Source of the DNA: Diphasiastrum complanatum
Lineage: Eukaryota > Streptophyta > Lycopodiopsida > Lycopodiales > Lycopodiaceae
Direction of reading: 5' to 3'
Assembly: GCA_029204225.1 (NCBI GenBank)
Contig: CM055102.1
Span: forward strand, 15,622,229 to 15,686,228
DNA: 64,000 nt
Shown here: piece after piece, positions 25,441 through 51,860 of the stretch
Layout: the number at the start of each line of letters is the position of its first letter
Position numbering within the stretch: the first letter of the stretch is position 1
The notes under the pieces: model-generated
Database searches by the model: none
Seen by the model: only the letters and a program-made list of their open reading frames with translations
Told to the model about the DNA's origin: nothing
Translations under genes and position numbers: made by a program

Positions 25441-25449
25441 CGATAACAT

Positions 25450-26080
25450 ATCTCAAATTTCAACATGAATGGAAGATCCGCATCTAACTCTAGCATCCAT
25501 TAACCCTAAGCATTAACACTACTCCATTAACCCTACGATCCACGATGAAGATAACTTACTCTTTTTCTCTCTCCCTTTCTCTCTCACAAAAAGTATAATA
25601 AAAATAAATCCCAAAAACATTCAGATCCAACAATCAGGAAACACAACAAAAGTATGAAAGATGGAGGAAAAGAGATAGAGAGCAAGGATATTCACAAATC
25701 CATTCCATAAGAGAACCAATTTGCTTGTATTGAAATGAGGATATGAACATGCCTTCCAACTCGAGTTTGGCACTATTTATAGTAAAGAGGACGACCCTGG
25801 CCTCAAAATCCTATTGGTCCATTTCTACCTCCCTAACTACTCAAACTTAAAAAAGAGTGGGAAACCATTCAAAAATTGGAGGGAACCAATTTGAATTTGA
25901 ATTTGAACCAATTTTGGTGGGAGTTCCAACTTTATTCACTAACTTGACATTTAGGCTTGCGACATTAAAAGTCCCGCAAAAAAGCCCTAAAGTCCTTTTA
26001 CTGACTTTCTAATTATCAAATAACTATGTGATTATTGGGTTGGACTTACACACGCAGGGTGCCAAATCCCTCTCTCTTAT
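25450..26080 (-). repeat. LTR-like copy of the minus-strand Asp-PBS gypsy element
   Basis: From about 25,455 the plus strand matches the LTR-like sequence that begins at 39,873 (shared CATGAATGGAAGATCC, CTAACTCTAGCATCCATTAA, a CT-rich box and GGAGGAAAAGAGATAGAGAG). This copy is longer and runs to about 26,080, where copia sequence begins. On the minus strand ACTATAAATAGTGCC (near 25,780) provides a TATA-like box. I read it as the 3' LTR of the minus-strand gypsy element whose primer site is at 39,851-39,868. The boundaries are approximate. Confidence 0.6.
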
Positions 26081-26099: not shown

Positions 26100-28474
26100 G
26101 GATGATTCTCCTCGGTGAATGACTGGGATCGTAGCATCATTGCGGTTGAACAATCGTGGGTCTATGCCCATGGACGGTAAGTGGAGTCGTTGGGATGGAC
26201 TCCGTTGTTTGAATAGTCGTAGGTCGTTGCCTAACGATGGAGAATGGAGCTGCTATGGCATGATCTTGCATTGGCTGGCTCTGATTGAAATCGTGATACT
26301 TGTCTTCAAGAAAGACAACGCCGCGACTAACTGAGATCTGGCCCGTAACAACATCGTATACACGATATGCTTTGTGTGATGTTGAATAGCCGATGAAGAT
26401 GTTTTTGCAACTTACTAGGTCCAGTTTTTTCCTCAGATCAGACGGTACTTGTGCATAGCAGAGACATCCGAAAACACGTAGGTGTTTCAAGCTTGGTTTG
26501 TAGCCGTAATAGGCTTCAAACGGTGTCTTGGAATCAACTGCTTTAGTGCTAGAGTACTTTTGCAGATAGTAGGCCGTAGAGATCACTTCTGTCCAGAAGG
26601 TTTGAGGCAAATGCGGGTTGACTGTCATGGATCGTGCAGCTTCCAACAGTGTGCGGTTCTTTCGTCTATCTACTCCATTCTGTTGTGGAGTGTAGCTTTG
26701 GTAAACTGATGGTGCATGCTATATGAAGATAGGTAGTCCTTCATTTCATTTGATAAGTACTCTCTCCCTGAATTAGACCGTAGGTCCTTGATTCTCTGAC
26801 CAGTCTGATTCTCAGCATATTGCTTGAATTCCTTGAAGCTATTGAATGCTTCTGACTTGTTTTTTATAAACATGACTCTGGTAAATCGGGTCATCAATGA
26901 ATGTCATAAAATGTAGAGCTTGACCCAAGGAGGGTACGCTCATAGGACCACATAAGTCACTATGTATCAGTGACAAAATGGACTTCGCCCTTTTGGCTTG
27001 TCCTCTTGGAAATCTAGTTCTAGATTGTTTCCCTAGTAAGCAACTTTCATAGACAGACTGATTGGCTGTAGTAACAACGTTTATATTCATGTTCTTGTCC
27101 ATTTTGTTATGATGCATATACAAGATTGAACGCATGTTTAGATGACCTAATCTTTGATGCCACAAACTAGCATCTGAACAACTAACAAAAAGTAAAAAAT
27201 TGTGACTTAGTATATACAAATTTTCTTCTCTGTAAGCAAAGTGGATTTCTTTTGAACTCTCATCTAAAATAGTGCATCAGCTGGCAGTGAACATGGCTCT
27301 ATAGCTCTGATTAGTGATCTTGCTAATAGACAATAGGTTCTTAGTAAAGTTGGTTACATAAAGTACACCATTAACCTGCCTATTGATGCCATCAGAGAAT
27401 TGTAGTTGAATAGAGCCTTGGCCTTCGACTTGATGTGAATTGGAGTCACCAAAGAAGATATACTTTGATTTTGTAGCTGTGAGTGTAGAGAAGAGGTCTT
27501 TGCATGGTGTCATGTGCTGAGAAGCACCTGAATCGAGATACCATTAATGGGCATCTCTACTGTGTTGATCTTGTACCATTAGCGCTTTATCATCATCTTG
27601 GGAACCTCTGACTATGTCAGAGTTGCCTTCTTGCTGCTGCTGCATCTTCTTCCTCACTTCATTGTGCTTGAGGACGCGACAGTCTTTGATGTCGTGATTG
27701 GTTCTTTTTCAGTATCTGCAAAATAACTTGGTCTTGGATGATGATTGATTGTGCTACTACTATTGTGATTGCGATGTTGTTGGCTGTTCTACCTTTGTCT
27801 TCTTATCCTTGAAGCCTTTATTCTTCTTGGATTGCTGCTTGTTTGAGTAGAGTGCCATGGATCTGGTACTCGTTGTTGTAGACAAGATTTTTCTCCTAAC
27901 TTCTTCTTGCAACATACTTGCTGTCAATTTTTGGAGAGACAACGCACGAGTATTGCTAAGAAGCAATACTAAATTGTCGTAGGAGGATGGTGAGAAGAGA
28001 CATGACAGAGTCTTTTTCAGAGATAGGCAAACCTGTTGCAGCCAGTTGGTTTAGCAACTGTTTGAACTCATTCAGATGGTCGCTTAGTGAGGTGCCTTCA
28101 CTCATTCTGAGTGTCAGTACCTTCTTCCTCAAGAAGAGACGAGTGAAAACATCTGAGGTCCCATAGATGCTTGTAAGTGTATCCCACGCTTCTTTGGAGG
28201 TGGTGTAGTTGGATACATGAGCGATTTGAGTGTTCTTCAGGTTTAGAGATACAATGGCAAGAGCCTTGCCATCCTTTGCTTCCCAAGCTGGAAGTTGTTT
28301 GGGTTTTGCCAGTTTGGCTATTGAACCGTTTACGTATTCCCAGAGCTCCTTCTCGATCAAGATCATCCTTATCTTGAACTTCCACATGTGAAAGTCATCT
28401 ACGTTGAATTTGTTGATGAGGCGGATCTCTGAGGTTAAACCTTCCATTGTGATCGAGTAGCAGAGATAAAACAC
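26100..28474 (-). pseudogene. Truncated Ty1/copia gag-protease-integrase, minus strand
   Basis: Read right to left. Gag from the ATG at 28,447 (MEGLTSEIRLINKFNVDDFH, then KEAWDTLTSIYGTS). A CCHC-like region near 27,690-27,740 has lost a cysteine, reading YRKRTNHDIKDC. Protease: LDSGASQHMTPC near 27,520 keeps the D-S-G-A active site, but a stop codon (TAA) lies just upstream of it. Pre-integrase: SLWHQRLGHLNMRS near 27,150. Integrase: LIHSDLCGPM (first D), DLRSNSGREYLS (second D changed to S) and a worn PQQNG segment where the third E is replaced, then PFEAYYGYKP and FGCLCYAQVP. The coding sequence stops before any RT, near the junction with the gypsy LTR. Stops and frameshifts make it non-functional. 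It differs in sequence from the complete copia element nearby, so it is another lineage. Confidence 0.85.
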
Positions 28475-28574
28475 AAATCAAATGAATCAGCTCTATAGAA
28501 CCAAAAATGCGTTAAGTTCTACTATAAGTGCTAGACTATAGTAATCCAGTAAACTTGTGCCTCTGATACCAATC

Positions 28575-29459
<885 letters not shown>

Positions 29460-29460
<1 letters not shown>

Positions 29461-29711
29461 AGACAGTTCGCCTGTCAGAACTGCATGTAAAAATGCATTT
29501 CTTCCCAAGTGTCGCCTGTCAGAAAATGCGCTGAAAAATGCAGTGTCACATTTTTCGCAAAAAGTCTTGCTTTTTCGAAAGTGCCTAAATGGCCCAAAAA
29601 CAACTTACAAAAGTGTCGCTTCTTAGGAAGGAAAAATAAAGCGACAGTGTCGGGTGTCAATTTTTTTGCCTGTGGAAAAACCTGAGTAAAAATGCAGACT
29701 GTGACGACAAT
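29460..29711. other. Left flank of the complete copia insertion (probably gypsy-derived)
   Basis: Non-coding, with repeated words (CGCCTGTCAGAA twice, near 29,469 and 29,514) and AAAAATGCA. Before the copia insertion it was continuous with 35,746 onward, just downstream of the gypsy protease reading frame, so it probably belongs to that gypsy element. Confidence 0.4.
29707..29711. repeat. Target-site duplication ACAAT, left copy
   Basis: ACAAT directly precedes the 5' LTR and is repeated directly after the 3' LTR (35,741-35,745), as expected for copia integration. Confidence 0.92.
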
Positions 29712-30361
29712 TGTGAAAGATTCAACTAGTTTCATCACATTTTGCAATATTTCCATATTTGGCATATTGAGGCCAAAACTTGTTTTAGACTTAGAGGTTG
29801 ACTTTTCAAAGTTCATTAGTCTAAATTTCATTTGAATAAACACTTTTTGAAAGTGTGGAAAAGATAGAATGCGAGTTTGAGTAGATTCAATTTGAATAAG
29901 TTGGGTACATTGAATCTAGACCCAAAATTGGTAGGGTTAGCATTTTGGTGGGAAAGCCAAGTGGCCAAATAGGGTTTGGACGTGTTATAAAAGGATGTAG
30001 CTCGTGGAGAGAGTCATCTTCTCTCTTCTCTATCTCATTTCATGCTTATACATGGTTCTCTTGGGTTCTACTATCCATTGGTGCACTATCTTGGTGATTG
30101 CTTGCAATTCTATGTGTAGAATGATCTATATTTGTTATTTTTGGATCCACACGTGTGAAATACAGTAGCTTGTTGGTTTTTTACGGACAGCAATAGTACA
30201 TAATCATTTCATTCAAGTTTGATCAAGTTCTATTAGTGTTTGCATCTCAAATTGTGTGTAGATGCTGATTTTTCTACATTGGTGAAATTGGTAGTGTATT
30301 TCTCTTTCTAACCAAAGATCATTCAAGCAGATTGGATCTTAAGGATCTGAAATCTTTCACA
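29712..30361 (+). repeat. 5' LTR of the complete copia element
   Basis: 650 bp, beginning TGTGAAAGAT and ending ATCTTTCACA (10-bp inverted ends). TATAAAAG at 29,986-29,993 is the likely promoter TATA box. Confidence 0.97.
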
Positions 30362-30373
30362 TGGTATCAGAGC
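30362..30373 (+). other. Primer-binding site (initiator tRNA-Met type)
   Basis: TGGTATCAGAGC directly follows the 5' LTR; it is the standard plant copia primer site. Confidence 0.95.
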
Positions 30374-30961
30374 TTGTGTTTCAGGTTATGAAGGAGGAAA
30401 TCATATCTATCAATGATTTGGTGAAGATATCAAGTCTAGAGCATGCTAGAGATGATTCTACACCAAAATCGGATTTTTTGCTTTTGTAGATTGGATCTTT
30501 TGTAGATCAAAACACTAAATAGGTCAATATACTTGTTCAATTCCGATTTTTGAATTCACATGCTAGATTTGGCCGATTTCTGGATCATTGGTTCAGCCTA
30601 AGTGGTGGCTTATAGATTGCATATCAAATTTTCAGCATTTGCATGTACATTTGGAATAGTCAATTTTTTGTGATTTTGTCAAAACCCTAATTTTGATTGG
30701 ATCTCTAGATAGTGAGGTTGCTGGACTTCATTTGAGTGTGTTTCAATCTTAGGAAGTGGCAAAAGTCATTAGATTGAGGATAGATCATAGGTTGGTCAAG
30801 ATTCCATGATTCTATGTGTTGATTTGCTTGGATAAGTGCTAGAAAGGAATTTGTGAGATAGTTTCAAATCTTGGTGATTTCTTTTGAAAGCATTTGTTGT
30901 TGTTCAAAGGAGTGCTTTGTGCATTGAAACAGGTTGAAAGAGAAGATCAGGTCATTGCTAC
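30374..30961 (+). other. Untranslated leader of the complete copia element
   Basis: 588 bp between the primer site and the gag start codon. No open frame of note; such leaders normally carry packaging and dimerisation signals, which I cannot locate. Confidence 0.7.
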
Positions 30962-32314
30962 ATGGCAACCTCAATTGGAGTCATGTTGGAAGCCAATGAT
31001 AGGCTTACCTCAAGTAACTATTCATTATGGAAAGTGAGGATAGAGTCACTTCTTGAGATGAATGATGTTTTGGATATTGTTGTAGGTGTGGAGGAGAGAC
31101 CAGCAACACAACAAGATCAATTGAGGTATGACAAGAGGGCCAAGAAGACTCTACACATGATAAAGATGAATGTTACCAATGAACTTCTCAAGGAAGTTGG
31201 TAAGTGCACATCATCTTTGGAAGCTTGGAATTCATTGAAGAAGCTTTACGAATCCAATTCTACTTCTAGAGTGTTGACTCTAAGAAGGCAAATCTTTTCT
31301 TGTTTGCAAAAGAATGAAGAAAGTCCAAGTACTTTTGTTTTGAGAATGAAAGCATTGAATGATGAGTTAGCTTGTATAGATGAAAGCATCAAGGAAGGAG
31401 AGCTTATTCAAGTGATTCTTAATGGCTTGTTGGATGCTCATGCTAACATTGTTCAAAGTATTGCTATTCAAAAGACTTTGCCAAGTTTGATGGATCTTCA
31501 AGAGATCTTGATCAATGAGGAATATAGGCTTCAAGCAAGAGGTGGATCTACATCGACACTTCAAAAGGATGCTATGTTCACAAAGGGCAAATTCAAGGGC
31601 AAAACCAAAAGCAAATGGTCTAAAGGGCAAGATCAAGTGGATGCTTCTTCAAGTGGCAAAAAGACGGATAGATCAAAGCTCAAGTGCTTCTATTGTGGCA
31701 TCAAAGGACACTTTGCAAGTGAGTGCTACAAGAAGAAGAGAGATCAAGGAGACAAGCAAGGTAATCCTACTCTTGATGAGGATGGTTTGGATGTGCAAGA
31801 TGCAAATGATGATGCTTTTGTGATGTCTTCATGTATGCTTGCTAATGATGGAGATCTAGATCCTTGGTGGATTGATAATGGAGCAAGTTCACACATGACC
31901 TTTCACAAAGAATACTTCACTTATTTGTTGGCATATGGAGATGACAAGAGGGTGATCTACACTACCAATGATGGTGAGTGTGCAATCAAAGGGATTGGCA
32001 CAATTCCTATTTCTCTCTCTACAAATAGGAATGTTCATTTGGAGAATGTCTTGTTTATTCCATCTATTACCAAGAATTTGCTTAGTGTGAGTCAAATGCT
32101 AAGTAAGGGCCTCAAGGTGGAGGTTGATGGAGATGCTTGTTTGATCAAAAGGAAGGATGTCTTGATTGGAAAAGGTAAAAGACAAGGGAAGTTGTTTAAA
32201 CTTGATGCTTGTGTTATTGCAATCAAGTTGGATGTGTTGCAAGGGAGTAAATTTCTATTCAAGAGGTTTGGCACAAAAAGATGGGACACCTCAACTTCAA
32301 GTCATTGGAGGTAA
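30962..32314 (+). CDS. Copia gag and protease reading frame
   Basis: 450 codons from the ATG at 30962. Residues 1-200 are a copia gag core (SSNYSLWKVRIESLLEMND near the start, then SLEAWNSLKKLYESNS). CFYCGIKGHFASEC (about 31,685-31,726) is a canonical CCHC zinc knuckle. The protease signature reads WWIDNGASSHMT at about 31,865-31,900: the normal D-(S/T)-G-A active site is D-N-G-A here, probably inactivating. The pre-integrase zone begins near 32,100. The frame then slips by one base: from about 32,269 the true continuation WHKKMGHLNFKS lies in another frame, so the last dozen or so codons of this frame are not element protein. Confidence 0.9.
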   Translation: MATSIGVMLEANDRLTSSNYSLWKVRIESLLEMNDVLDIVVGVEERPATQQDQLRYDKRAKKTLHMIKMNVTNELLKEVGKCTSSLEAWNSLKKLYESNSTSRVLTLRRQIFSCLQKNEESPSTFVLRMKALNDELACIDESIKEGELIQVILNGLLDAHANIVQSIAIQKTLPSLMDLQEILINEEYRLQARGGSTSTLQKDAMFTKGKFKGKTKSKWSKGQDQVDASSSGKKTDRSKLKCFYCGIKGHFASECYKKKRDQGDKQGNPTLDEDGLDVQDANDDAFVMSSCMLANDGDLDPWWIDNGASSHMTFHKEYFTYLLAYGDDKRVIYTTNDGECAIKGIGTIPISLSTNRNVHLENVLFIPSITKNLLSVSQMLSKGLKVEVDGDACLIKRKDVLIGKGKRQGKLFKLDACVIAIKLDVLQGSKFLFKRFGTKRWDTSTSSHWR

Positions 32315-33387
32315 TGGCAAGGAAGAAGGTTGTGATTGGTCTTCCAAGTTCCTTAAGTAATGACAAGCATGTTTGTGAGTCTTGTGCTTTGTCTAAGTCA
32401 CATAGACTACCTTATACTAGATCTATTTCTAGATCTACAAAGCCTTTTCAACTTGTACATTCGGATATTCATGGATTTACTACAATTAGCAATAGTGGAG
32501 CTAAGATGTATGTAGCATTTATTGATGATTTTAGTAGATTTTGTTGGATCTATCTACTAAAGATCAAGGATGAAGTGTATGATGTCTTTGTCAAGTTCAA
32601 GAATGCAAGGGAGAACCAATTTTCCACAAAGATCAAGTGCTTGAGAGGGGACAATGGTGGTGAGTACATATCTAACAAGTTCAAGGCCTTTTGTGATGAG
32701 CATGGGATCAAGAGGGAGTATACAACATCAAGGACCCCACAACAAAATGGATTGGCTGAAAGGAAGAATAGAACTTTATGTGAAAGTTCTAGAGCTATGA
32801 GATTAAGTGCTAATCTTGACAAACCATTTTGGGATCAAGCTTTGTTGTGTGCCAATTTCTTGTGCAATAGGTGGCCGAGTGCTATTTTGGATGGAAGGAC
32901 ACCTTTTGAGATGCTATTCAAGAGGAGGCCGAGTGTCAACTTTCTAAGAACCTTTGGATGCACATGCTATGTCAACATTACTCTTGATGATAGGACCAAG
33001 GAGGATCCATCTTCAAGAAGAGGTATTTTTGTTGGATATAGTGAGGTAAGTAAAGCCTACAAGGTTTACATTCCTTCTACTAACAAAGTGATTGTTGGTA
33101 GAGATGTCATTTTTTATGAGGAAAACATTCCAAAGGTGTCTTCAAGCATGATTTATGGTAAAGTAGATGGATCTAACATTCTTGATGTTGATGAGAAGGA
33201 TCCTACTTTGGATGGTGGTGATGATGGACCTTCATCGAGTCAAAAGCCAAGGAGAACATCAAGAGAAAGACAAGTACCTTCAAGGCTCACATATGATCAA
33301 AAGGGTAAGCAAGTAGTTTCTGGAAATTATGTTGCTTTCCTAACCTCTTTGGATGATCCTACAAGTGTATATCAAGCAAGGAAATAA
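32269..33387 (+). CDS. Copia integrase reading frame (frameshifted from gag-protease)
   Basis: The frame opens with WHKKMGHLN (pre-integrase histidines), then HVCESCALSKSHR (the two cysteines of the HHCC zinc domain). The catalytic core has HSDIHG (first D), RGDNGGEYIS (second D) and TPQQNGLAERKNRTL (the E), all intact. PFEMLFKRRP and TFGCTCYVNI mark its C-terminal part, followed by the RTSRERQVPSRLTYDQKGK linker. It inserts element cDNA into the host genome. A single-base frameshift separates it from gag-protease, and TAA at 33,385 ends it just before the start of RT. The first methionine is at 32281. Confidence 0.92.
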   Translation, partial: WHKKMGHLNFKSLEVMARKKVVIGLPSSLSNDKHVCESCALSKSHRLPYTRSISRSTKPFQLVHSDIHGFTTISNSGAKMYVAFIDDFSRFCWIYLLKIKDEVYDVFVKFKNARENQFSTKIKCLRGDNGGEYISNKFKAFCDEHGIKREYTTSRTPQQNGLAERKNRTLCESSRAMRLSANLDKPFWDQALLCANFLCNRWPSAILDGRTPFEMLFKRRPSVNFLRTFGCTCYVNITLDDRTKEDPSSRRGIFVGYSEVSKAYKVYIPSTNKVIVGRDVIFYEENIPKVSSSMIYGKVDGSNILDVDEKDPTLDGGDDGPSSSQKPRRTSRERQVPSRLTYDQKGKQVVSGNYVAFLTSLDDPTSVYQARK

Positions 33388-34510
33388 GAGAAGTGGATCC
33401 AAGCAATGGATCTTGAGTATCGATCTCTTATGAAGAGTGGAACATCTTTTGGAAGATCTTCTTGTGTACATGGAGCTATGCAAGTGGATGGATGTTATCT
33501 TAATGTAAAATCAAGTATTGGATCTGAAAAACAAAGTTTGTTCAATGACTTTGATGATCAAGTTGAAGATCAAGAAGTTGATCTCAAAGCGCTTCAACTA
33601 GTCAAAAGGGAAGGTGGCAATTTGGAGCTAGTCAAGTGCATCAAAGGAGAGGTAATTGGAAAAGGTGTTATGGATATGTTTTTGCAGCATATTGAAGACT
33701 CAAGTAAGGTCAAAGGAGCAGCAAGGAAGTGTTGTTCAAGTTTACTTTACTTGTTCTATCTCATGTTTGAGCAATTTCATGTGGATGTGTGCAAATTGTC
33801 AAAATATGGTAAAACTAGCTACATTGGTGAGCAATGTTTTGATGTTGGATTTGTACTAGCATTCTTGGCTGATTTTGCTGATGGAAATGAAGCTATTGGA
33901 GGTTCATTATGTCACTCATCCATGGCTAAGTTCTCAAGTGTTGAGCTACTGGGTGCCAATACTTGGAGATTGTCAATTTTTGGTGAATTCATAGTCATTT
34001 TCTTGGTGCTGAATTTGCATCATTTATGTACTCACCTACTCGGTTTATGGAGTCATGTGGTGCTGAATTTGCATCATTTATGTACTCACCTACTCATGGA
34101 TTTCCAAGGTTTGATGGTTTCTTGTGGCAAGATGAAGATGGAGGCTCATTCATGGAGTATCATGGTGGATACAAGGCAACAAAGGACAAAGGAGGAGAAG
34201 ACATGCAAGCAAAAGTTGATCACTCACATTTATTGTTTGTTTGCTGTATTTTTCCAGAGAGTTCAGAGCTGGAAGCATGGTGGAATCATTTCACTTACAT
34301 TCTATTTGATTCTTCATGTTCTAGTCACATTTTTACATGTAAAATTGATGTAAGAAATAGTGAAGCATCCCAAGTGGACACTATTCTCTATATCAATTAT
34401 GGTTGTTTCTATTTTGAGCATTACATGATCATTGAAAGGAGATCTATTCTTAGGAAGTAGATCATTCTTATGATGGATCAAAGTTCTATTGGCAAAAACT
34501 ATGCTAGGAG
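33388..34510 (+). other. Foreign module in place of copia RT
   Basis: After the stop, EKWIQAMDLEYRSLMKS (about 33,391-33,440) is the normal first stretch of copia RT. Then homology ends. The next 1 kb has no RT motif (no D-V-x-x-A-F-L, no Y-V-D-D). It stays open in one frame to 34,353 (ORF 33,406-34,353, 315 codons), with RKCCSSLLYLFYLMFEQF, VDVCKLSKYGKTSYI and FADGNEAIGG. RNase H sequence resumes at EHWKLGKRVLRY near 34,510. A diverged copy of the module exists on the minus strand at 40,172-40,870. A 54-bp tandem duplication near 34,005-34,110 shifts the frame here relative to that copy. I do not recognise the protein. Confidence 0.8.
34003..34112 (+). repeat. 54-bp tandem duplication within the foreign module
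   Basis: GGTGCTGAATTTGCATCATT and the bases following it (through TATGTACTCACCTACTC) occur twice with a 54-bp period near 34,005 and 34,059. Confidence 0.85.
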
Positions 34511-35095
34511 CATTGGAAACTAGGAAAGCGAGTTTTGAGGTACATCATTGGAACTCGAGATTTTGGCATATTGTATGAGGGATCATCAGCTAATCTTTTT
34601 GGATTTTCAGATTCGGACTATGCTGGAGATGTAATGGATAAGAAATCCATTAGTGCTTATTGTATTTTCATAGGTGATGGAGCTATATCATGGATGTCAA
34701 AGAAACAAGCCACTATCTCATTGTCATCTAGTGAGGCCGAGTACAAAGCTCTTACACATTGCACAAAGGAGATGGTATGGATCAAAAGGATGATCAAGGA
34801 TCTTCACTTGCTGGATTTTTCAGAGAGCCCAATCATCTTTTGTGACAATCAATCAGCCCAAATAATGGCATCCAATCCTATCTTTCATGCTAAGAGCAAG
34901 CATATTGAGATACAATATCATTTTGTGAGAGAGCAAGTCATTGCAAAGGAGGTGGAGCTTCAACATGTGTCTTCAAAGGAATGTGTAGTTGATATCTTCA
35001 CCAAAGCATTGGGAAAAGACTTGTTCATGAAGCATAGGACTTCACTTGGAGTATTATCAAAGTCTATGCTAAAACTAGTTGAAGAGGGAGTGTGA
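34507..35095 (+). CDS. Copia RNase H domain
   Basis: Starts at the RT/RNase H junction EHWKLGKRVLRYIIGTRDFG and continues with GFSDSDYAGD (first catalytic aspartate), SWMSKKQATISLSSSEAEYK (the glutamate region), IIFCDNQSAQIMASNPIFH (second aspartate) and KHIEIQYHFVRE. It ends with the usual copia tail (VDIFTKALGKDLF, then MLKLVEEGV) at the purine tract. It would degrade RNA in the RNA-DNA hybrid. Its sequence is intact although the RT to which it should be fused is absent. The open frame with its own methionine starts at 34,535. Confidence 0.93.
35081..35090 (+). other. Polypurine tract
   Basis: GAAGAGGGAG lies directly before the 3' LTR, the expected second-strand primer position. Confidence 0.9.
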
Positions 35096-35740
35096 AAGAT
35101 TCAACTAGTTTCATCACATTTTGCAATATTTCCATATTTGGCATATTGAGGCCAAAACTTGTTTTAGACTTAGAAATTGAATTTTCAAAGTTCATTAGTC
35201 TAAATTTCATTTGAATAAACACTTTTTGAACGTGTGGGAAAGATAGAATGCGAGTTTGAGTAGATTCAATTTGAATAAGTTGGGTACATTGAATCTAGAC
35301 CCAAAATTGGTTGGGTTTGCATTTTGGTGGGAAAGCCAAGTGGCCAAATAGGGTTTGGACCTGTTATAAAAGGATGTAACTCATGGAGAGAGTCATCTTC
35401 TCTCTTCTCTATCTCATTTCATGCTTATACATGGTTCTCTTGGGTTCTACTATCCATTGGTGCATTATCTTGGTGATTGCTTGCAATTCTATGTGTAGAA
35501 TGATCTATATTTGCTATTTTTGGATCCACACGTGTGAAATATAGTAGCTTGCTGGTTTTGTACGGACAGCAACAGTACATAATCATTTCATTCAAGTTTG
35601 ATCAAGTTCTATTAGTGTTTGCATCTCAAATTGTGTGTAGATGCTGATTTTTCTACATTGGTGAAATTCGTAGTGTGTTTCTCTTTCTAACCAAAGATCA
35701 TTCAAGTAGATTGGATCTTAAGAATCTGAAATCTTTCACA
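35091..35740 (+). repeat. 3' LTR of the complete copia element
   Basis: 650 bp, same ends as the 5' LTR (TGTGAAAGAT and ATCTTTCACA), with about 20 hand-counted substitutions and no length change relative to it. Confidence 0.97.
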
Positions 35741-35745
35741 ACAAT
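35741..35745. repeat. Target-site duplication ACAAT, right copy
   Basis: Matches 29,707-29,711 exactly. Confidence 0.92.
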
Positions 35746-39872: not shown

Positions 39873-40172
39873 TGTGCATATTTCCGATTTCAGCATGAAT
39901 GGAAGATCCACATCTAACTCTAGCATCCATTAACCCTAAGCATTAACACTCCTCGATTAACCCTACGATCCACAATGAAGATAGCTTATTCTTTCTCTCT
40001 CTCCCTTTCTCTCTCACAAAAAGTATAATATAGATAAATCCCAACAACATTTAGATCCTACAATTAGCAAAACAACACAAGTATGAGAGATGGAGGAAAA
40101 GAGATAGAGAGCAAGTCTGCTTGTATTGAAAGGAGGATATGAACATGCCTTCCAAAATCGAGTTTGGCACTA
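39873..40172 (-). repeat. 5' LTR (partial) of the minus-strand gypsy element
   Basis: Starts TGTGCATA on the plus strand, just beyond the primer site, and matches 25,455-25,775. Similarity ends abruptly at GTTTGGCACTA near 40,172, where sequence of a second copia derivative begins, so the LTR is truncated. Confidence 0.75.
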
Positions 40173-40568
40173 CCATAAATGTGAGTGATGACCATTTGCT
40201 TGCTTGTCTCCTCCAATTTTGTCCTTTCTTGATATGTCTCCACCATAAAACTCCGTGAATGAGCCTCCATCTCCATCTTCCCACAAGATATCATCAACAC
40301 TTGATGACTTGGCCATGAATGAGTCACATAATGGACCTCCAATAGCTTCATTCCCATCAGCAAAACCAGCCAAAAATGCTAATACAACCCCAACTATAAG
40401 ATATTGCAAGACAATGTAGCTAGTTTGTCCATATCTTGACAATTTGCACACATCCACATAAAATAGCTCAAACATGAGATAGAACAAGTAAAGTAAACTT
40501 GAGCAACACTTCCTTGTTGCTCCTTTGACCTTACGTGAGTTTTCAATAAGCTGCAAAAACAGATCCAT
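40170..40568 (-). CDS. Module-encoded ORF, unrecognised (132 codons)
   Basis: This frame carries the conserved part of the module without the frameshift seen in the other copy. It starts MDLFLQLIENSRKVKGATRK, continues with CCSSLLYLFYLMFELFYVDV (a hydrophobic stretch that could cross a membrane), CKLSRYGQTSYI, a second hydrophobic stretch (GVVLAFLAGF), then ADGNEAIGG and an acidic/Gly-rich tail ending HHSHLW. Both copies keep these words although they differ at many positions. No known family is recognised, and expression is unproven. Confidence 0.4.
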   Translation of the reverse strand: MDLFLQLIENSRKVKGATRKCCSSLLYLFYLMFELFYVDVCKLSRYGQTSYIVLQYLIVGVVLAFLAGFADGNEAIGGPLCDSFMAKSSSVDDILWEDGDGGSFTEFYGGDISRKDKIGGDKQANGHHSHLW

Positions 40569-42344
40569 AACATCTTGCCAAGTAACCTTCCTTTGATGCT
40601 CTTGACTAGCTCCAAATTGCCACCTTTCCTTTTGTGTTGTTGAAACCCTTTGAGATCAACCTCTTGATCATCAACTTGACCATCAAAGTCATTGAACAAT
40701 TTTTTTTTTCCAGATCCATTACTTGCTTTTCAAGCATGAAAACCATGAGAACCAATATCCACTTGCATAGCATCATCTACACAAGAAGATTCTCCAAAAC
40801 AAGTGAGTAAAGCAAAGTGAGTCGCTTCCACTTGCTTACCTTTCTCTTGATCATCAAAGATATCAAATATATGAATATCTTCATACCTGAACCTCTAGAA
40901 ATACTCCCTCCCAAACATATGATCTAGATCTAACAAGACCTCATCAATGCTTGATCTCGAATTTCCACAAAGGTTAGTGAAAACAATGTCACCAATGTCA
41001 CCATCATAAATCAAAAGATAGATTCCAAACTTTCCATCCAACATGAAGTAGAGTAGGTGAAGATGAGTATCAAATCCAATAAATCTAGCCCTCTTGAGTC
41101 CATAACAAACCTCAATAAGCTCACCAGTGAGATCTCCCTTGCCTTACAGAAATTGCCTCTCGATTTGCTCCGTGTAGCCTTCTCCAACCAACCTTTTACC
41201 ATCTCAATCATGAGTGATCAATTCACAATCATAGAATCCTTTGAGTTGATGAAGAGATGTGAGATCCATGCCTTGGATCTTCCCAAGAACCAATCTTCCA
41301 TTGCTCTTTCCTTCATAAGACTCCCTCTTAATGATTGCATCATAAGAAGTAGAAACCTCAAAAACATTAGAAGCCATGAAAAAAATGATTAGTACCTTCA
41401 ACTTAAGGATGATTGAAGTACTCTCTTTTCTCAAACAAGAACTTCTACGCAATATTTTAGGTAATGAATCATATGATAATGATTCTTCCTCACTATCATT
41501 CACAATGAAATCATTCAAAGTACATCATACTTTGAACTCCTCACATACTTCTCTTCTTCTTGACTTGTGACTATCTCCCCTCACCAAGTCTCTTGATAGA
41601 ACCATTTGATCTACTCTTTGTATGAAGACATGTGACTCCACTTGCTGCAAAAATGACTTTCTTGGACTCATCACAAAAGAATGTAGAAGAACCATCTCCT
41701 TCATGAATGCACCTAGCAACATCTTTTTCCTTATGATCAAAGAAATCAAACTTTTCCAAGGAAGAACCTTCACCTCCATTGATGAAGTTAGCTCTTTCCT
41801 TACCTTTTGCATGCTTGCACTTGCCATGAAGAACCATTGAAACACCATCATTATCCTCAAGACTAGCCAACTTAGCACAAAGATGAACATCTCCAAGAAG
41901 CATATTAGATCTTGACCTAGATCTAGCATAATGAAGCTTTTTAGACTTTGCATAAGATCCACCAATCTTATTGATGCTAAAAGGTAACTTTGGAAAGTTG
42001 AGACCAATCCCCTTTTCCATTCCATCCTTTTTGTTAGCCATAACAAAAGCATCAAGCTTGAAAAGTCCACCTTGTCTATTGCCCCTAGCAACCAAGATTT
42101 CTTCTTTTGTAATGAAACAAGCATCACCACCAAACTTGATTCCACAATAAAAGCATTTCAACTTAGACTTATCTTTCTTTTTGCCAAAAGGGGAAGTCTC
42201 ACCTTGATCTTTCCCTTTAGACCACTTGCCTTTGCCTTTGTCTTTGAACTTGCCTTTGATGAACATAGCCTCCTCTTCATATTGAGATGTCGATGTAGAT
42301 ACACCTCCTCTTGATTGAAGCCTATATGTCAGACTTGGCCTCAA
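40173..42344 (-). mobile_element. Rearranged copia derivative carrying the same foreign module
   Basis: Read right to left. 41,571-42,344 is a 257-codon frame: gag C-terminus with KGKWSKGKDQ and half a zinc knuckle (CFYCGIK), then a deletion straight into the pre-integrase zone (FGGDACFITKEEILV) and a worn YARSRSRS segment. Unrecognised sequence follows to about 40,870, with no integrase core or RT. From about 40,870 to 40,173 it matches the foreign module of the complete element (DDQEVDLK, RKCCSSLLYLFYLMFELF, FADGNEAIGG, DGGSFTE). No LTR was found at either side; the left end abuts the gypsy LTR. Confidence 0.75.
41011..41570 (-). other. Unrecognised part of the foreign insert in the minus-strand copia derivative
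   Basis: Minus-strand frames of 104 codons (41,204-41,518, starting MNDFIVNDSEEESLSYDSLP) and 66 codons (41,011-41,211) follow one another. Across frames the text reads GKIQGMDLTSLHQLKGFYDC, FIGFDTHLHLLYFMLDGKFG and YLLIYDGDIGDIVF. It looks like former coding sequence, but it is neither copia nor gypsy pol and I do not recognise it. It has no counterpart in the complete element. Confidence 0.4.
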
Positions 42345-42969
42345 TTGTCTTATTCATCTTCTTCAAAGAATCAGCTTCGTTTATTAGAGTCCGAAGTTGT
42401 GTTTCGAGAGAACGATTTCGTTCGATCAGCTTCGTGTTGTCTGATTCGAGCGAATTGATCTTCTCATAGAATGCCTTTAGATTCTCTTGGCATCTCCTTT
42501 CTGAGTTAACAAACTCCATGGTAATCTTTTGATGGTACTTGTCCAACTCGTACACTTCAGCCACTAGATTTTTGGCTTTCTCTGTCATGGTTTGAAACCA
42601 CTAGGACTGGTTGTCTGGTTCATCTTCATCTTCAATAGGTGCCCCAGGTTCGCCTTCAGCAGCTGCTCGTGCTTTCTTTGATGTGTCAGACTGGGTTGGA
42701 TCATCATCAGAGGTGGATGCACTCTGCTACTTCTGAGATGTGGAAGCAGATGCTAACTTTGAAGATTCAGTAGCAGCAGCAGCAACTCCATCTGTATCCA
42801 TTGCCATGGCTGGAACTATATCTGGTTGGGATGGTGCAGCATCAATCTCCGTAGCAGTGGTAGCTGCCACTTCGACTGTTGGTGCAACATCTGGTGTAAC
42901 CGGAATAGGGACAGGTAGGATGCTGGAAAGATCAATTGGCTTGGGAGCCAACATCCTTCCCGTCAGCAT
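42322..42969 (-). pseudogene. Alanine-rich, coiled-coil relic (probable retroelement gag tail)
   Basis: Two minus-strand frames separated by a stop. 42,727-42,969 is Ala/Pro/Thr-rich (MLTGRMLAPKPIDLSSILPV, VEVAATTATEIDAAPS). 42,322-42,588 starts MTEKAKNLVAEVYELDKYHQ and carries a heptad-like segment, INSLESDNTKLIERNRSLET, typical of a coiled coil. The charged text between them includes SDTSKKARAAAEGEPGAP. Such proteins are often the C-terminal part of plant gypsy gag-like ORFs; the gag-like relic at 44.7 kb may be a partner, but this is on the opposite strand. Identity is tentative. Confidence 0.4.
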
Positions 42970-45780: not shown

Positions 45781-46712
<932 letters not shown>

Positions 46713-49695: not shown

Positions 49696-51447
49696 TAGTT
49701 AGAATTAAAGTAGAATCATTGTGTTACTGCATTGTGGGTCCTATCACAAGCAAGTCGACGGGACACATGTCCCGCCAATGGCAACCTGGGTCATGCATGG
49801 GTTGCTTGAGTGAACAACTATATGTACAATGTAATCTCATTTTCAGAAATACAATTGCTATGTGAGCTTGCTGTGGAGAGTGTTTTCTGTCTGTGTTACT
49901 GTGTAGCATGATCTGTGTTCCTGTGCAAAGCAAATTCTAAGTTGGTATTAGAGCCGTACAGGGAGTGTACACAGTACAACATCGTTGTTGAAGAGAGCTT
50001 CGGGAGAACTGTCTTCTAAGAGTTCAGGGTTTACGGCAGGTTGAAGACAGAAAGAGAAGAAAAAATCTGGTGAAAAATTGACAATTTTGAAGCCAGTTGA
50101 AAATTGAAACCGGGTTTGGGGTTACAGTTTTTTATACATAACTGGTGATTTCTTCGCTGTTTGTGCACCGTTTTGGATGCCGTAAGGACAAGAAGGAAGC
50201 TAATTACATTGTCAACCAGCCATGGAGAGATTTTGAGGTTTATGTCAGAGATTTGCCTCCAGACAGTTAACCTAGCAGATTTGCGGTAAAAGGTGAAAAA
50301 AGCCACTTTGTCAAGTTGAGCTAAAATCACCATTTCTCCACGAAATTTCATGAGTGAACACTCTACAGACTTGGTATCAGTAGGGCGACCCTGCTCCAGG
50401 CCTCAGATTGTGCTCAAATCGATCCGTAAGTGAGTTAGATCAAGCAAAAATGAACTTGGGGAGGCGCACCATTGGATGGAGTCTGAAGGGTTATTGAAGA
50501 GGGGCCTGAAGAAATGAAGTGCATTTTGGCCTTCAACTTCATGAAAAATTTTCATTCTGAAATTGGAGCTGGGTCCCTTTAGGGTTTCCTGGGGGGGCGA
50601 CGAGACTTATTTGCATGCATGAAGTTTTTATTTAACTTCTCTCTTTTGTTTTTCCAAACATGAAATGGATGCATGTGAATGTGGGAGGCCTGACCCTGTT
50701 GATTGCATGTCTATCGGTTAGTTCAGTGAGTTGTGCTGACAGTAGCCTTGTGGTTGCAAAAAATATGAAATTAATGCAATGGCTATTCGTAACATTTTTA
50801 TGGTTACGTAGGCTGGATCTTTGGATGTCTTTGCAAAAATCAATGCAATGGTCGATTCGGGAATAAGTTTTTTGTGAGTCTACCTGAATTGACAGATGAG
50901 AATTGAGTTATCTATTCTCCTGAGCTTAACCGGGAGAATCTTTAAAAAATAATTTTATTATTCTAACTGTTATGTCTATGTCATTGGATCCATGGATTTA
51001 GGATTGGCAATAAAATACTATTCTTCATGGTAATTTTTTCTCCAGGCAAGTACCCTATAATGGAAATTTGATTTCCTGGTATTGTGCTTTTTATCGGTTT
51101 AACTCTATAGTAGAAATATTACTAGGATTATTTGGTGCACTTAACTTAGTCGGTGAACATAAATATACGATCAAGTATTGTTGAGATAGATACTTGCAAA
51201 ATTAACAGATCTTTTTGTGGAAGGTTTACTGGTTAACTTATAAATGATTTAGATGAGGATCTAAATGTGGTGTTGAACTAGTATAATTGAATTCAGCACC
51301 TATACATTTGAGATTCCTGAATCATTGGCAATTAACTTGAGTAGTTTATTACTCCAAGATGAAGTTAATTGGTAAAACGATTAGTGTGATAGGATTCACC
51401 AGAAATTGATGGTTTTGAATTATATTGCTTGTAAGACGCATGATTAG
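49696..51447 (+). other. Retroelement-like non-coding DNA with primer-site-like sequences
   Basis: TTGGTATTAGAGC at 49,942-49,954 differs by one base from the copia primer site and follows sequence with LTR-like features. A second look-alike, TTGGTATCAGTAGGG, lies near 50,371. No gene found; a 68-codon frame at 50,660-50,866 has no motif. Confidence 0.4.
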
Positions 51448-51860
51448 TGTGAGAGATTTCAACTAGTTTAGTCATATTAGCTACATTTGTTTATTTGGCA
51501 TTTGAGGCCAATTTCATATTAGACTTAGAGTTTGACTTTTCAAAGTTATATTGGTCTAAAAGCATTTGAATAAACACTTTTGAAAAGTGTGGGAATTCAT
51601 ATTACACGAGTTTTAGTAGATTAAAATTTGAGTAGTAGAGAAATTGAATCTAGTCACAATAATAGTAGGGTTTTCTATTATGGAGGGAATTTAGGTTTGG
51701 ACATGTAATAAAAGGATGTATCTCATGGGAAGAGATACAGTTCTCTCTCTCTTATCTCATTCATGCTTATACATGGTTCTCTTGGGTTTTACTATCCATT
51801 GGGGCACTATACTTGTGATATCTTGCAATTTTGTGTGTAGCTATTATCATTTTGGTATGC
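51448..51860 (+). repeat. Diverged copia LTR (same family as the complete element)
   Basis: It starts TGTGAGAGATTTCAACTAGT and stays alignable with the LTR at 29,712, including GAATAAACACTTTTGAAAAG, ATAAAAGGATGTATCTCATG (the TATA region) and TGCTTATACATGGTTCTCTT. Many substitutions and indels show it is older. Similarity fades near 51,860. It may be a truncated solo or 3' LTR. Confidence 0.8.

Follow-up and report, generated by a model that had tools for sequence, protein, structure and literature searches.

A Copia subfamily of Diphasiastrum complanatum in which the reverse transcriptase is replaced by a stretch that appears to derive from a second, non-autonomous Copia family

The window, which is the whole 64-kb stretch of Diphasiastrum complanatum DNA analysed here, was found to contain a Copia element at 29712-35740 with the TSD ACAAT on both sides. 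In the following, A denotes the module-bearing subfamily to which the window copy belongs, A+ its RT-bearing sibling form and B a second non-autonomous Copia family, and the L-numbered loci are sequences fetched from the same genome as the window. The features of the element, and two related stretches of the window, are as follows.

29712..30361, plus strand: 5' LTR of 650 bp, 96.9% identical to the 3' LTR without gaps; TSD ACAAT at 29707-29711
30362..30373, plus strand: PBS TGGTATCAGAGC, read from the sequence and identical in the family B copy L058
30962..32314, plus strand: gag - zinc knuckle - protease ORF, with DNGA instead of DSGA and in the wrong frame after approximately 32260
32281..33387, plus strand: integrase ORF with DDE residues and an SH3-like domain (Pfam rve 1.2e-12, SH3_retrovirus 5.1e-27), ending in TAA at 33385-33387
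33388..33445, plus strand: N-terminal stub of RT, 58 bases with 91% identity to L056, the RT-bearing sibling
33446..34504, plus strand: module replacing RT (approximately 1.06 kb), the C-terminal half and 3' tail of family B ORF X
33945..34104, plus strand: copy-specific stretch within the module, with a 51-bp tandem duplication, net 4 bp shorter, module frame broken
34505..35090, plus strand: putative RNase H and pol C-terminus in a frame different from that of the module, 97% identical to the RNase H of L056 and ending in the PPT GAAGAGGGAG
35091..35740, plus strand: 3' LTR, 96.9% identical to the 5' LTR; TSD ACAAT at 35741-35745
40172..42353, minus strand: decayed family B copy (gag end, protease tail, N-terminal part of X, module), organised like L016/L030
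48926..49699, plus strand: piece of an RT-bearing Copia family, R, that is more distantly related (Pfam RVT_2 2.9e-18 and 4e-22)

Copia sequence was found to break off at 33445 (EKWIQAMDLEYRSLMKSGT), inside the first RT residues, and to resume at approximately 34507 (EHWKLGKRVLRY), at the start of RNase H. The ORF at 30962..32314 matched Retrotran_gag_2 (1.6e-23), zf-CCHC and Pol_BBD in Pfam. The segment at approximately 34507-35090 gave no Pfam match and is taken by us to be RNase H from its motifs and from its alignment to RT-bearing relatives; the residues of the integrase catalytic triad were likewise presumed from motifs. The longest open stretch of the module was 321 codons, in frame with the RT stub, compared to a maximum of 166 codons in 2,000 sequences simulated from the dinucleotide content of the module. 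In Pfam, no RVT_2 match was obtained in the two long forward frames of the module.

When the 1.74-Gb genome was queried with the module, 4,236 first-look candidates were obtained, and the best 40 of these, which were scored, showed 95-100% identity, all but one being full-length or at most 3 bases short. Twenty module loci were fetched with flanks; because they were drawn from the best 40 matches to the module, a choice that also biases comparisons of indels or identity from one segment to another, the share of rearranged members in the whole LTR family is shown only by the pattern counts given below. In all 20 loci integrase, complete or partial, is followed by the RT stub, the module and RNase H, of which at least a portion remains; some 5' LTR is kept in 16 and some 3' LTR in 18 of them. 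When the window copy was included, the 5' junction was present in 21/21 copies and the 3' junction in 20/21, the exception being L029, in which just the end of RNase H remains. With at most 3 mismatches allowed, a pattern of 38 bases spanning the A 5' junction occurred at 1,860 genome sites (952 + 908) compared to 0 for the reversed-pattern control. Of the 9 rows that have both LTRs in full, 7 showed exact TSDs; when L012 and L013 are counted as a single insertion, this makes 6 of 8. The LTR distance in rows of this kind was 0.008-0.035. A single frame of at least 330 aa spanned the module in 13/21 copies, and a frame of 999-1,176 aa ran from gag or protease into the module in six rows, that is, in five insertions (L012/L013, L020, L021, L025 and L028). 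Flank sequence was common to three pairs of loci lying on different contigs or at different places, on both sides for L012/L013 and on one side for L010/L017 and L016/L018. This suggests uncollapsed haplotypes, segmental duplicates or insertion into a common repeat, so the fetched loci possibly represent as few as 17 independent insertions plus that of the window.

The LTRs of the window element have the TG...CA ends and the TSD of Ty1/copia elements, and its order departs from the Ty1/copia order gag - PR - IN - RT - RNase H in that RT is missing; the element is a Ty1/copia member by descent that is structurally incomplete. Subfamily A is non-autonomous in the sense that an essential enzyme is missing and insertion has nevertheless been repeated, none of the 20 loci having room for RT. 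LARDs have a non-coding internal region and TR-GAGs code for gag only. Neither A, which codes for gag, protease, integrase, module and RNase H, nor B, which codes for gag, protease and X, is of these types.

The window copy is damaged. Its gag-protease and integrase lie in different frames because one base, present in 18/18 other copies with an alignable protease segment, is missing. The protease motif reads DNGA, and S was found at that position in 17/17 other readable copies; none of the 4 other A copies aligned at 33385-33387 has the TAA. Between 33945 and 34104, where the window copy has its tandem duplication, the 20 fetched loci carry a different sequence that is 4 bp longer. The difference breaks the module frame of the window copy, and its identity to these loci in this stretch was 84-87% compared to 95-100% for the adjoining module segments. 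Either gene conversion or replication slippage could account for this peculiarity. The triad residues were present in the window copy and in every covering copy (20/20, 19/19 and 19/19). Other A copies bear lesions of their own. The LTR distance of the window copy was 0.0315, and its age would be approximately 1.2 million years if the plant substitution rate of 1.3e-8 quoted in the accessible part of PMC9744471 applies here.

A preliminary description of this locus had reported an open, non-RT module in place of RT at 33388..34510. The absence of RT was borne out by Pfam and by alignment to the sibling L056, the coordinates proved correct to within about 60 bp, and the module was indeed open. 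The LTRs, PBS, gag, integrase and RNase H that had been listed were all found, and the triad that had been called apparently intact was present. The completeness claimed for the element did not hold for the window copy, given its frame breaks, DNGA and TAA.

Several other repeats were observed in the window. A repeat pair at 25447-25775 and 39877-40172 (82% identity) appears to represent the LTRs of an old minus-strand Gypsy-like element, one of which is adjoined by the PBS-like TTGGCACCGTTGCCGGGGA; ORFs at 38105-35766, which we take from their motifs to be gag/protease-like, would belong to the same element. The window Copia copy seems, from this arrangement, to be nested in it, and the family B copy that is cut at 40172 by an LTR of the same element is older. 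On the minus strand, at 26140-28477, lie remnants of another Copia family (gag, protease with DSGA, integrase and SH3), with approximately 31% amino acid identity to the window element in integrase. Long (CT)n/(GA)n arrays at 29060-29260 and 46476-46645 yield meaningless ORFs of alternating residues, and the second array directly adjoins a 64-bp fragment of an A-family LTR. At 51446-51840 lies a partial LTR with 77% identity to that of the A family, and no pol sequence was recognised directly beside it.

RT-bearing relatives were found with a pattern made of the RT catalytic box and the RNase H start at the right distance, which occurred at 1,448 + 1,470 sites genome-wide (control 0), and three RT-bearing elements, L055, L056 and L057, were fetched in part. 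L056 was 97.2%, 95.2% and 97.1% identical to the window copy in LTR, integrase and RNase H, respectively, and has RT where the window copy has the module. The order IN - RT - RNase H was seen in L056, of which the 3' part, without gag, was fetched; its integrase and RT frames are broken. The PPT is the same in A and L056, and the A+ PBS lies outside the fetched part. The A+ 5' junction, with at most 3 mismatches, was found at 1,910 sites (949 + 961; control 0), a pattern that may include other RT-bearing families. A+ is thus known from one fetched copy, which lacks its 5' half, and from pattern counts. The 1,860 A junctions compared to 1,910 A+ junctions indicate that the LTR family has two forms and that these are about equally common.

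L055 and L057 represent sister families, with 72% DNA identity in integrase, and L055 keeps an open integrase-RT-RNase H frame of 885 aa. The sister family of L055 (C1:20797380-20800700) dominated the 100 sites listed for the RT-RNase H pattern, all of them on one contig, with near-identical sequences, which suggests that a recent burst may have occurred. For the family R fragment, the other 39 of the 40 scored genome matches were 96-98% identical; in the integrase of family R, amino acid identity was 43-49% in the main matched pieces of seven loci and 36% in shorter ones (L031, the window's copy, included).

A minus-strand copy of the module was found in the window at 40804-40172, preceded by a further 1.2 kb of unrecognised sequence and a gag fragment and truncated at 40172 by a Gypsy-like LTR. 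This copy belongs to family B, which is known from L016/L030 and 15 further loci (L040-L054), L039 being the L030 copy; with ORF X as query, 4,882 first-look candidates were obtained genome-wide. The order in family B is LTR (78-81% identical to that of A), UTR, gag, protease and a long ORF X that runs to the usual pol C-terminus, followed by PPT and LTR. Alignment of L030 and L052 showed that integrase is missing from both and that RNase H is reduced to its last 27-39 bp; a search for RT in L030 gave no match, and integrase and RNase H motifs were not found in any of the 16 family B rows. In family B, ORF X stands in place of integrase, RT and RNase H. L052 has an unbroken frame of 812 aa, 774 aa of which are X, and L047/L048 one of 794 aa, while most other family B rows are broken; judging from identical ORF layout, L040, L047/L048 and L053/L054 are probable duplicates among the 16 rows. 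L042, L047 and L048 are variants in which X is 58 residues shorter, in frame, within the module part. L058 and L052 together form one B copy whose two LTRs are 98.3% identical over 589 bp. The PPT was common to A, A+ and B, and the PBS to A and B.

Identity of the module to three copies of family B was 81-88%, depending on the segment. The alignment over both ends of the module comprised A (five copies), A+ (one copy) and B (five rows). In it, A agreed with A+ up to GGAACAT and with B from there, and A, A+ and B all have ACAT (33442-33445, the last four nucleotides of the stub in the window); on the 3' side, A agreed with B up to AAAACTATGC and with A+ from GGAGCATTGG. In gag-protease, A and B differed by dS 0.73-1.50 and dN 0.23-0.36, with dN/dS 0.23-0.33 (12 comparisons), a ratio that reflects both lineages, mostly before recombination. 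In the module (197-355 codons), dS was 0.09-0.20, dN 0.13-0.19 and dN/dS 0.89-1.48 (16 comparisons; 8 of the 24 module rows, from L025 and L016, were dropped because only 29-35 codons aligned, the start motif having been missed). These A-B comparisons, like the stop test and the within-B comparison given below, were limited to copies with open frames. The dS of the module, far below that of gag, indicates that the common ancestor of the module is much younger, as recombination predicts.

By these findings the module is the C-terminal half of ORF X plus the 3' tail of X, and A is a recombinant. Our overall reading, to which we give a probability of approximately 0.85, is that A is a non-autonomous Copia subfamily that arose once by recombination between A+ and B, is supplied with RT in trans, and carries part of a rearranged ORF that holds degenerate pol pieces.

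The origin of X was pursued in family B. X was found to hold three degenerate pol pieces. One corresponds to the N-terminus of integrase, the second to the fingers and palm of RT, with YVDD altered to YDGDIGDI, and the third to an integrase-RT linker; the linker follows the RT piece, so the pol order is rearranged. With the whole ORF, the profile E value was 1.7e-6 compared to 0.26 for the reversed control. The best single-piece blastp E values of X were 5e-4 to 0.009 compared to 0.05 for reversed X, and those of its RT-like stretch against five RT sequences were 7.5e-4 to 0.12. Windowed z-scores of X against pol were not relied on alone because reversed X gave 2/132 above 4, with a maximum of 8.0. 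When the module of L028 (358 aa) was compared to this pol profile and these pol sequences, no match was obtained. The window module had no significant match in Pfam or PDB, PDB matches being at chance level only, and for X and its pieces all Pfam matches were below the cut-offs and PDB matches again at chance level. An IMG/VR match of the module (contig L001, 36% over 48 residues) was taken as chance, and the integrase had no match among viral contigs. Structure prediction for the module from four window sequences gave pLDDT 38.9 and pTM 0.28, with no fold. In protein alignment, the second module frame of the window scored z 6.2 against gag-protease.

In oligonucleotide style, the sense strand of the module parts shared with B scored +0.07, +0.11 and +0.02 per base, on a scale on which held-out Copia segments scored -0.003 to +0.11 and 300 background 500-mers, in-sample, at most -0.016; the stretch private to the window copy scored -0.055. 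The B-shared sense strand thus resembles the element's own coding DNA, whereas the antisense strand and the other Copia and Gypsy ORFs of the window do not. Taken together, X is best described as a probable rearranged ORF of this Copia clade, in which degenerate pieces of integrase and RT are joined to a C-terminal part for which no kin was detected.

Selection on the module was compared to that on gag and integrase. Within A (18-21 copies), no segment showed a clear third-position excess; shared gag variants came nearest (13/3/14; p 0.025, one of 12 tests), a hint, no more, of selection on the gag frame of the kind that a semi-autonomous element supplying gag would show, and shared module variants were 12/11/9 and 3/4/6. 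Between A and B, module codons 1-300 contained 0 stops compared to 5.2-6.7 expected under random placement (P 0.0005-0.004) and fewer synonymous changes than random (P <0.00025 to 0.05), in 12 comparisons that share one history and with a stop result inflated by the choice of open-frame copies; a single gag control showed the opposite pattern, an excess of synonymous changes. For the last approximately 53 module codons, which the stop test omitted, the A-B ratio was 0.39-0.49 in 4/4 comparisons, a result that counts against diversification. Within B, X of L039 compared to four copies gave 0.53-0.74 for the C-terminal half and 0.77-1.03 for the N-terminal half, and the former speaks for mild constraint and against a diversifying reading. 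Ratios of 0.15-0.16 for integrase of A against L055 and of 0.17 for RT of L056 against L055 are those of usual constraint. In contrast, integrase of three A copies against L056 gave 0.69-1.29 on few changes, and no constraint is therefore visible since the split of A and A+.

Between A and B, the module frame is open with no constraint on its amino acids, while those of gag are constrained. Both founders seem to have had this frame open, whether it served to make a protein or simply to be translated.

The simplest account of A, in line with the recombination described for Onsen in the accessible part of PMC5668417, would be two template switches in a single founding event, during reverse transcription within a particle that had packaged an A+ RNA together with a B RNA. 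The first switch would have led from A+ to B RNA at ACAT just inside RT and the second from B back to A+ at the start of RNase H, leaving the C-terminal half of B's ORF X in place of RT. Because B gag is 70-87% identical, by segment, to that of A, co-packaging of A+ and B is assumed. A DNA-level switch before amplification, by gene conversion or unequal exchange, could have had the same result, and sequence alone cannot tell the two apart. The better-preserved copies of A would produce Gag-PR-IN-X in one frame, followed by RNase H in another. Since A has no RT and has nevertheless inserted many times with TSDs, it needs RT supplied in trans, for which A+ or a sister family like that of L055 would be the natural and most likely source, given that A and A+ agree in LTR and PPT. 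A has spread to about the copy number of A+.

It is quite possible, if short of probable, that the module is untranslated or meaningless filler, its open frame left over from its origin and the RNAs of the element copied in trans. The lack of a clear third-position excess within A outside the shared gag variants, the A-B module dN/dS of 0.89-1.48 and the integrase of A, which against L056 is likewise without visible constraint, are what such filler would give. The absence of stops between A and B, weakened as it is by the choice of intact copies, and the within-B ratios of 0.53-0.74 argue against it. A bolder proposal, which we regard as unlikely, is that X is a new fast-evolving plant Copia protein, built from rearranged integrase/RT pieces and an unrecognised C-terminal domain, that parasitic elements would make as a Gag-PR-(IN-)X polyprotein, keep in frame, drive to change and find worth passing between families by recombination. 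A 'fast-evolving element protein' had been offered in the preliminary description, and it gains loose support from the divergence of the A and B modules without stops and loses some from the same within-B ratios.

That the module is a decayed or hyper-diverged reverse transcriptase is improbable. Degenerate RT fingers/palm, an integrase stretch and a linker are indeed found in X, with the whole-ORF profile match given above, but the RT-like stretch lies upstream of the linker and outside the module, the L028 module had no pol match and the window module frames no RVT_2, and the RT of the sibling is normally constrained against L055. Decay of an RT, which had been named earlier as an outcome that would overturn the idea of an unrelated module, was thus undetectable in the module itself and visible only as the degenerate palm upstream. 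Still less probable is transduction of a captured host gene fragment by the retrotransposon. Gene capture is known for plant elements, and the module has a long open frame and no significant Pfam or PDB match. Its sequence, however, recurs in family B as the C-terminal half of a longer ORF, its B-shared parts score positively for the element's own style, and the upstream part of X holds integrase- and RT-derived stretches; the earlier suggestion of host origin gave way to a source in another Copia family of the same genome, with a sense strand mostly of element style. Chance insertion of unrelated DNA into a single copy is refuted by the common junctions and the genome-wide count. On the collection of copies that had been proposed, the pattern counts gave about equal numbers for the module and RT forms, and none of the 20 fetched loci had the segment in addition to a normal RT.

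Onsen of Arabidopsis is a Copia element, and in soybean LTR swapping between autonomous and non-autonomous elements has reportedly been described (Du et al. 2010); there LTRs were exchanged, whereas here the pol interior was. The mosaic LTR elements of Onsen are attributed, in the accessible part of PMC5668417, to reverse transcription of two co-packaged RNAs. Like these, A is a mosaic element, for which the same mechanism is proposed; the Onsen recombinants described there join members of one family, whereas A joins an RT-bearing and an RT-less family at a 4-nt microhomology, with loss of RT. Among Gypsy elements of einkorn wheat, RLG_Quinta is described in the available text of PMC11302176 as keeping gag and an ORF part of unknown function (DUF1), lacking RT and integrase, and having PBS and LTR ends in common with the RT-bearing RLG_Cereba. 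As in that pair, a non-autonomous element with gag and an unrecognised ORF stands here beside an RT-bearing partner. Unlike Quinta, a Gypsy element without integrase, A is a Copia element that keeps integrase and RNase H and misses only RT, and one ORF is here common to two non-autonomous families through recombination.

In the wheat Gypsy variants of RLG_Sabrina, coding regions are replaced by differing sequences, several of which encode proteins without homology, and these variants have high copy numbers and are probably mobilised by an autonomous partner, as far as the accessible part of PMC9744471 describes them. Replacement of a coding part, high copy number and mobilisation by a partner, the last of which is here inferred, are shared with A. 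In Sabrina, Gag-Pro was replaced in elements already without RT and integrase, whereas here RT alone was replaced and gag, protease and integrase stay. Replacement of a coding part by unrelated ORFs is thus already known for wheat Gypsy non-autonomous elements, from the accessible parts of PMC9744471 and PMC11302176. In the literature searched, largely papers outside subscription, no Copia family was found that keeps gag, protease, integrase and RNase H with RT swapped for a stretch of another family, which is weak evidence of novelty.

These findings indicate that a parasitic retrotransposon subfamily can arise in one step, by swapping its RT for a stretch of a family that is already parasitic. 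The product equals its RT-bearing siblings in copy number (1,860 compared to 1,910 junctions), and the loss of RT alone, with integrase and RNase H kept, departs from the usual picture of gag-only derivatives. ORF X, shared by A and B and open there without amino acid constraint, offers a tractable test of whether unassigned ORFs in non-autonomous plant elements encode proteins that have a role or translated filler. If X were a fast-evolving protein, it might act, for instance, in competition for the helper's particles, in interference with the helper or in escape from a host factor.
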